From NCBI GenBank assembly GCA_029252805.1, contig JAQXAR010000048.1:1-47059 (forward strand): a stretch of 47,059 nt of DNA. The letters run 5' to 3'. Below are positions 33,974 through 34,478 of this stretch, in pieces. This DNA is from Rickettsiales bacterium. Its GTDB lineage: Bacteria; Pseudomonadota; Alphaproteobacteria; Rickettsiales; JALZUV01. A program made the position numbers and the translations under genes. The notes beneath the pieces are model-generated. The model searched no databases. It saw nothing but the letters and a program-made list of their open reading frames with translations, and had not been told where the DNA came from. The first letter of the stretch is position 1. The number at the start of each line of letters is the position of its first letter.

Positions 33974-34225
33974 CTATTTATTAACAAAAGACCCCGTCTT
34001 TCGAAACAGGCGCTTCAAACTAACATTAAGCCCGCAGGAAAGGCGCAAGAGCGTGTACAATTCTGGCGTGTATTTTCCGCGTTCCAGTTTGTGGATATAC
34101 AGCAAATCCACTGCACTACGTTGGCTCAACTCTTCAAGTGAAAGATTCTTATTGAGCCGTAAATCTTTGATATTAAATCCAATTTGGCGTCGAAGTGCGC
34201 AAAAGTTAGGTTTGGAATACTGCAT
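33974..34225 (-). CDS. XRE-family helix-turn-helix regulator
   Basis: 83 residues. The helix-turn-helix is clear over residues about 12-65: IKDLRLNKNLSLEELSQRSAV, then YIHKLERGKYTPELYTLLRLS. There is no sensor domain. The ATG at 34225 is chosen for its strong Shine-Dalgarno (AAGGAG, 6 nt upstream); an ATG at 34261 gives 12 more residues. Its roughly 180-nt upstream region is highly structured, and it lies 39 nt before pyrH on the same strand, so the two may be co-transcribed. Targets are unknown. Confidence 0.85.
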   Translation of the reverse strand: MQYSKPNFCALRRQIGFNIKDLRLNKNLSLEELSQRSAVDLLYIHKLERGKYTPELYTLLRLSCGLNVSLKRLFRKTGSFVNK

Positions 34226-34239
34226 GAGGTGCTCCTTAG

Positions 34240-34431
34240 GTTGAGGGTGAATCAACGGCACCCCACCTTGGGGCGCCGGGAGTTCAAACCACGCAGTACA
34301 CGTGTGGGTTTATTCCCCCGAAGGGTCTTTTATTCACCGCACTCCCGACATAAGGAGCCATACCCTATAAAAGGCATAACAAAAAGTCCACTCTGCCGGG
34401 AGCGGGGGGGCGGTACTGCGACGGTTTGAAC
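34240..34431 (-). promoter_or_regulatory. Structured leader with long-range inverted repeat upstream of the XRE gene
   Basis: GTTCAAACCACGCAGTAC (34282-34299) and the reverse complement of GTACTGCGACGGTTTGAAC (34413-34431) form about 17 bp of pairing around a 113-nt interior. The interior and flanks hold CTCCCG (34342-34347), able to pair with either of two direct repeats GCCGGGAG (34275-34282 and 34395-34402), so alternative folds are possible. Two more hairpins lie nearer the gene: GGC-CCCC/GGGG-GCC (34257-34277) and GTTGA/TCAAC (34240-34256). On the minus strand this is the leader of the regulator. A short frame with SRQSGLFVMPFIGYG lies inside. It is not tmRNA, 6S or SRP RNA as far as I can see. 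Confidence 0.55.
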
Positions 34432-34478
34432 GCCAAGGTTGAGTATAAATATCGAATTTGGAAACGCAAGTATATTTT

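Follow-up and report, generated by a model that had tools for sequence, protein, structure and literature searches.

A relative of sRNA-Xcc1 in the leader of a small XRE gene of a Rickettsiales bacterium: a probable C4-type antisense control unit

Introduction

The window analysed here is a stretch of 47,059 nt from a Rickettsiales bacterium (assembly GCA_029252805.1, contig JAQXAR010000048.1). A small XRE regulator gene interrupts an otherwise housekeeping part of it. It is flanked by DUF2333 and pyrH, with frr and uppS also nearby (both named from their translations). The XRE gene is preceded by a structured leader, raising the question of what kind of regulatory element the leader represents and which transcript it acts on. 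An original prediction, made from the letters alone, saw an alternative-fold RNA in front of the XRE gene, was reminded of the immunity leaders of phage P4 and considered a satellite-phage remnant or a new regulatory RNA. Our data suggest, with a probability of roughly 80%, that the leader is a C4-type antisense control unit of the kind on which phages P1 and P4 rely for immunity.

Results

Anatomy of the leader

The leader of the XRE gene is encoded on the minus strand and the predicted stretch 34240-34431 is oriented towards that gene. It is composed of the following parts.

34469-34464, minus strand: weak -35 element TTGCGT, 16 nt from TATACT
34442..34447, minus strand: possible -10 hexamer TATACT, weak, from sequence; would start the RNA just before a1
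34431-34423, minus strand: upstream target segment a1 GTTCAAACC, complementary to a'-b' of the RNA
34420-34413, minus strand: upstream target segment b1 CGCAGTAC, complementary to a'-b' of the RNA
34378..34405, minus strand: intrinsic terminator, hairpin CCGCTCCCGGCAGAGTGG then ACTTTTTGTT, between a1-b1 and the structured RNA
34357..34380, minus strand: hairpin after the U-tract, from folding; a GTGCC-hairpin has the same position in relatives
34267..34349, minus strand: putative C4-type antisense RNA of 83 nt, relative of sRNA-Xcc1 (RF02221), from Rfam match and covariation
34292..34299, minus strand: b' GTACTGCG, partner of b1 and of the region around the XRE start codon
34282..34290, minus strand: a' GGTTTGAAC, pairs with a1
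34232..34237, minus strand: Shine-Dalgarno sequence AAGGAG of the XRE gene, from sequence
34217..34226, minus strand: putative second target b2 CATGCAGTAT, spanning the XRE start codon; forms 10 bp with b', two of them G-U
33974..34225, minus strand: small XRE/HTH_3 regulator gene, 83 aa, ATG at 34225 (Pfam HTH_3, E 1.3e-9)

Since the consensus scanner reported no promoter at the leader, the -10 hexamer is graded as weak. The a1-b1 segment (34413..34431) is also present at related loci, and the terminator is kept in relatives as CCNC..CCCGAC..GGNGGTTTTTTGTGCC. The 83-nt RNA consists of an outer stem GTCGGGAG/CTCCCGGC, an inner ACCC-GGGG hairpin, the b'-a' loop and GCC at the stem foot. It is followed by a short hairpin ahead of the Shine-Dalgarno sequence.

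These parts include every element that the original prediction had named. Its 17-bp inverted repeat is present, with GTTCAAACC.GTCGCAGTAC (34431-34413) opposite GTACTGCG.TGGTTTGAAC (34299-34282) in 8+9 bp with a small bulge, and corresponds to the pairing of a1-b1 with the a'-b' loop of the structured RNA. For local complementarity the repeat scores 12, compared to a mean of 7.2 for shuffled leaders (2/400 reach 12). The two copies of GCCGGGAG are exact (34275-34282 and 34395-34402, plus strand); one forms the 3' strand of the RNA stem, the other lies in the terminator hairpin. Only one complementary GTCGGGAG exists (minus strand, 34349-34342; CTCCCG on the plus strand); it is the 5' strand of the structured RNA and is able to pair with either copy, such that CTCCCGGC of the terminator hairpin is a possible partner as well. 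Further hairpins and the Shine-Dalgarno sequence AAGGAG (34237-34232) ahead of the ATG at 34225 are likewise in place. The suspected leader peptide SRQSGLFVMPFIGYG is a different matter. The frame exists, but it is not credible as a leader peptide because it crosses both the hairpin and the U-tract of the terminator and a Shine-Dalgarno sequence is lacking at its single ATG.

Competing folds

The minus-strand leader folds more stably than 200/200 dinucleotide shuffles (z -4.96), whereas the fold of the plus strand is weaker (z -2.8). Two alternative pairings are available: a1-b1 with a'-b', and the terminator loop with the 5' strand of the RNA. The full leader reaches -96.4 kcal/mol with a1-b1 and a'-b' paired versus -71.8 kcal/mol with the RNA stem enforced. 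As the long-range fold is more stable in the full leader, processing presumably has to separate the partners for the RNA to act. The alternative pairings behind the idea of an alternative-fold leader are real, but they are one consequence of the C4 plan.

Two exclusive folds with these energies and a terminator within the leader would also suit a riboswitch or attenuator acting in cis, in which a single transcript adopts one of two folds, perhaps with the help of a leader peptide. We consider this very unlikely. The terminator is transcribed ahead of the RNA meant to compete with it, the peptide frame would have to be translated from an ATG devoid of a Shine-Dalgarno sequence, a conserved ligand-like pocket is missing, and the variable sequence of a'-b' points to antisense pairing instead of ligand binding.

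The terminator loops of related loci (34395-34402 in the window) often read CCCGAC, complementary to GTCGGG in the 5' strand of the RNA. Over loci, the pairing between loop and 5' strand scores 4.7 vs 4.2 when shuffled (p = 1e-5; p = 0.007 against non-cognate partners). A conserved switch based on this pairing was set aside in view of the small effect.

The structured RNA is a close relative of sRNA-Xcc1

No Rfam match was obtained for the window leader at gathering threshold. A permissive scan aligned 34349-34267 to sRNA-Xcc1 (RF02221) over model positions 1-87 of 87 with 51.4 bits (E 3.3e-8). Because this is below the curated RF02221 cut-off of 53 bits, we refer to the RNA as a close relative and not as a member of sRNA-Xcc1; 12 other genomes of the order contain copies above 53 bits. 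With its core related to an Rfam family, the RNA is not wholly new, as had been considered.

Covariation, named at the outset as a possible point of failure, is present. In a set of 35 sequences including the window, 15/17 pairs have changes on both sides. The covariation score is 0.51 vs 0.20 after shuffling and ≤0.12 after sliding, and 0/500 shuffles reach it. The consensus structure of sRNA-Xcc1 is kept over the whole model with compensatory changes, and G-U pairs are among the covarying ones. At the stem foot a 5' G is found in 35/35 sequences, RCC after the stem in 28/35 and RCCA in 19/35. By its sequence, such a tRNA-like stem foot suits RNase P.

The loop matches its own leader and its own start region

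Related loci were compared with one another. They share the order a1-b1, terminator with CCCGAC-like loop, RNA with b' and a', and a2-b2, whereby the a2-b2 segments lie over the Shine-Dalgarno sequence of the next gene. Complementarity was measured as gapped local complementarity with cognate, non-cognate and sense controls. In 119 non-redundant loci a'-b' scores on average 9.1 against the own upstream segment, compared to 6.06 for non-cognate segments and 6.07 for the sense control, and the own-upstream fit is in the top 5% at 74/119 loci. The 36 loci of the window's order behave in the same manner (8.94 vs 5.72, p = 7e-11).

The start region of the next gene was evaluated at 67 related loci. 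Here, a'-b' scores 6.76 against the own start region vs 5.01 (p = 3e-10), and 27/31 of the best complements cover the Shine-Dalgarno sequence. Over all copies in the window's order this downstream complementarity is not significant (p = 0.11); it appears only in the XRE subset of the order and in other proteobacteria. At 20 XRE loci the own start region is a better partner for the loop than the start regions of the other loci (p = 0.004). For the window itself, the duplex of b' with the XRE start codon amounts to -15.7 kcal/mol, which is marginal on its own (shuffle p = 0.06). RNAduplex energies over long spans gave a weak signal dominated by G+C-rich stretches and were dropped.

Phage P4 served as control. 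Rfam C4 (74.9 bits), isrK and c4-a1b1 were all found there, in the same order as the parts of the related loci. The analogy to P4 is therefore largely right in mechanism, as the P4 comparison and the statistics over 119 and 67 loci agree. The feature typical of C4, a loop a'-b' complementary to an upstream a1-b1, comprises 17 bp in the window. At the level of the models, Rfam C4 (RF01695) has no match up to E 10 in the window region, neither C4 nor isrK matches the window or seven sRNA-Xcc1 loci, and a C4 search of the own genome, run without positive control, gave no match anywhere. In Rfam, C4 and c4-a1b1 share a clan, and no clan is assigned to sRNA-Xcc1.

Genes behind the RNA

The first downstream ORF was assigned at 100 loci and most often encodes an antirepressor or related domain: Bro-N (22), KilA-N (14), P22_AR_C (11), pRha (8), AntA (5), ORF6N (5), P22_AR_N (5) and SymE (1). 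PHROG 'anti-repressor' families top the list for genes behind sRNA-Xcc1-type RNAs, making antirepressors the usual target elsewhere. The gene in the window belongs to XRE/HTH_3 and is no antirepressor, in contrast to what prevails at the other sRNA-Xcc1 loci. The search for further leader-plus-XRE pairs, suggested together with the original prediction, was successful. In the window's order small XRE genes follow such RNAs on the same strand at no fewer than 19 places (at least 19, counted by hand from tables), usually some tens of bases behind the RNA. Their proteins share 25-40% identity with the XRE protein of the window, and the XRE relatives at loci L284, L285 and L287 likewise follow an sRNA-Xcc1-type RNA. 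Other copies in the order precede lipoproteins, a pilin-like gene or small unknown ORFs.

Another RNA type with the core GGCCATGCCTATGTCCAGGCGCAAGCTAAAGGGCATGGC is located before small XRE genes at L325, L327, L328, L333 and L318. No Rfam match is listed for it, and it may be another C4-like class.

The literature presents sRNA-Xcc1 differently. In Xanthomonas, Northern blot and RACE revealed an RNA of 88 nt for which many targets were predicted (PMC2996969), and the title of a later work, cited in PMC12444791, has it trans-acting and under HrpG/HrpX control. Moreover, some copies are without an obvious gene behind. An ordinary trans-acting sRNA directed at unrelated chromosomal mRNAs, whose position before the XRE gene is incidental, would be in line with these reports. 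We regard it as improbable, given that the targeting loop covaries with its own upstream segment and its own Shine-Dalgarno sequence and that the class of the neighbouring gene is strongly non-random. Based on sequence comparison, the sRNA-Xcc1 family is best read as a C4-type RNA owing to the complementarity to own leader and own Shine-Dalgarno sequence, the antirepressor neighbours and the recurrent XRE genes. For the window we infer that the leader controls its XRE gene.

Distribution

Of 175 genomes in the window's order, 53 contain the sRNA-Xcc1 family, frequently more than once (10 copies in the window's own genome, a maximum of 13 per genome of the order). It is also present in 51/299 genomes of a phylum-wide sample; 0/14 control genomes contain it. 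The exact core pattern occurs in >118 stretches of GTDB genomes and in >120 viral-contig stretches, both among the matches listed. The GTDB genera include Pseudomonas, Xanthomonas, Azospirillum, Pectobacterium, Pasteurella and others. A DNA search of phages with the whole leader gave only one short match.

In the own genome seven near-identical dispersed 'double' units were observed (C18:34824, C27:34774, C29:4891, C33:69041, C37:35080, C60:19275 and C47:48445; loci L275, L276, L279-L280, L282-L283). Those that were read at full length contain a conserved promoter-like stretch, a1-b1, a C4-like RNA and a second C4-like RNA (GTCGGGAGGATCGGGGAATAAAAGACC...). Their loops are variable and there is no obvious gene behind.

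Dispersed multi-copy repeats, together with the presence of sRNA-Xcc1 in Xanthomonas integron cassettes, there upstream of symE (PMC12444791), could suggest an element acting at the DNA level (integron attC, REP sequence or transposon end) whose fold would form in single-stranded DNA. This is highly improbable, since the RNA is oriented towards the next gene with a terminator before and Shine-Dalgarno complementarity behind, the covariation extends to G-U pairs and sRNA-Xcc1 is transcribed in Xanthomonas (PMC2996969).

Signs of a mobile origin

The link to phages or satellites is borne out by two genomes. G020, of the same genus, exhibits an unrelated small ORF (~130-150 aa) between DUF2333 and pyrH (L336, G020:C10:1250-1793), in a gap equal in length to that of the window. 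The site of leader and XRE gene is hence called accessory, and the DUF2333-pyrH gap looks like a site for accessory genes. In G024, an RNA-plus-XRE unit (L284:3184-3858) immediately follows pieces of a P4-type integrase (Arm-DNA-bind_3, Phage_int_M), which hint at a satellite or prophage origin. This copy is without a1-b1.

The different gene at the site in G020, the G024 copy lacking a1-b1 beside integrase fragments and the Rfam score below threshold in the window would all be compatible with a control region of a phage or satellite that has decayed, is silent and no longer plays a role. We judge this unlikely for the window, where the parts are intact: the 17-bp a1-b1, the terminator, the fold of the RNA, the Shine-Dalgarno sequence and the open XRE frame. 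A C4-type unit that is presumably active is the preferred reading.

Discussion

Proposed mechanism

Transcription of the C4-type unit would start just before a1-b1. Some transcripts would end at the terminator, while those reading through would include the XRE gene behind the 83-nt RNA. A cut at G34349, probably by RNase P, would set this RNA free. The b'-a' loop could then pair with a1-b1 in the first part of newly made transcripts, and b' also with the region of the XRE start codon. Such pairing would keep the operon off by a block of translation and/or early termination. New DNA arriving in a naive cell would at first escape repression because the antisense RNA has not yet built up.

Implications

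Both the family to which the RNA is related and this kind of mechanism have been described before. In the open literature searched, we found no paper linking sRNA-Xcc1 to C4 or to antirepressors, so that priority is uncertain; a Xylella paper gives sRNA-Xcc1 and C4 as separate items. It seems likely that sRNA-Xcc1 is a second, sequence-distinct class of C4-type immunity RNA in proteobacterial prophages, located before antirepressor genes, and that in one alphaproteobacterial order it has become a plug-in unit for small XRE and other accessory genes with ~10 copies per genome at most, each recognising its own leader.

So far sRNA-Xcc1 has been treated as an sRNA of virulence for which numerous host or chromosomal targets are predicted. 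Should it be of C4 type, it would act mainly on its own parent transcript, and the target predictions in Xanthomonas and Xylella would need rethinking. Own leader plus own Shine-Dalgarno sequence would then be a simple, testable rule for the target of every copy. Phage-style RNA immunity would moreover extend to accessory genes of uncultured alphaproteobacteria.

Comparison with known systems

The closest sequence relative is sRNA-Xcc1 itself, which matches over its full length with the same fold, the same inner ACCC-GGGG hairpin and the same GAATA motifs. In the literature consulted it figures as an sRNA that is trans-acting or linked to virulence, and the a1-b1/a2-b2 plan is not mentioned. 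The IsrK leader of prophage Gifsy-1 likewise has a seqA-like leader with terminator upstream of an antirepressor-like gene (PMC4825925), and the Rfam isrK model covers the a1-b1/terminator part of P4. However, IsrK is a trans activator of translation, and the loci studied here are without isrK match.

In phage P4 immunity (CI RNA, seqA, seqC) a stable RNA also pairs with an upstream seqA, with a terminator in between; pairing of CI RNA with seqA and seqC causes termination (PMC4825925). P4 controls its replication operon in this manner, whereas the window holds one small XRE gene between DUF2333 and pyrH. P4 immunity features such as the replication operon (alpha etc.) or the P4 integrase are not present near the window RNA, and integrase fragments lie beside the RNA only at the G024 copy.

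C4 of P1 and P7 (RF01695; c4-a1b1 RF03163) differs from the window in the core sequence and in the next gene, which in the window is XRE. Shared are the order of an a1-b1 segment and an RNA with a b'-a' loop and, across the related loci, a target over the ribosome-binding site. RNase P processes C4, the b' loop of which covers ribosome-binding sites, and in P1 C4 serves antirepressor control (PMC5320573). Antirepressor genes are the common target of C4, as they are at the related sRNA-Xcc1 loci.
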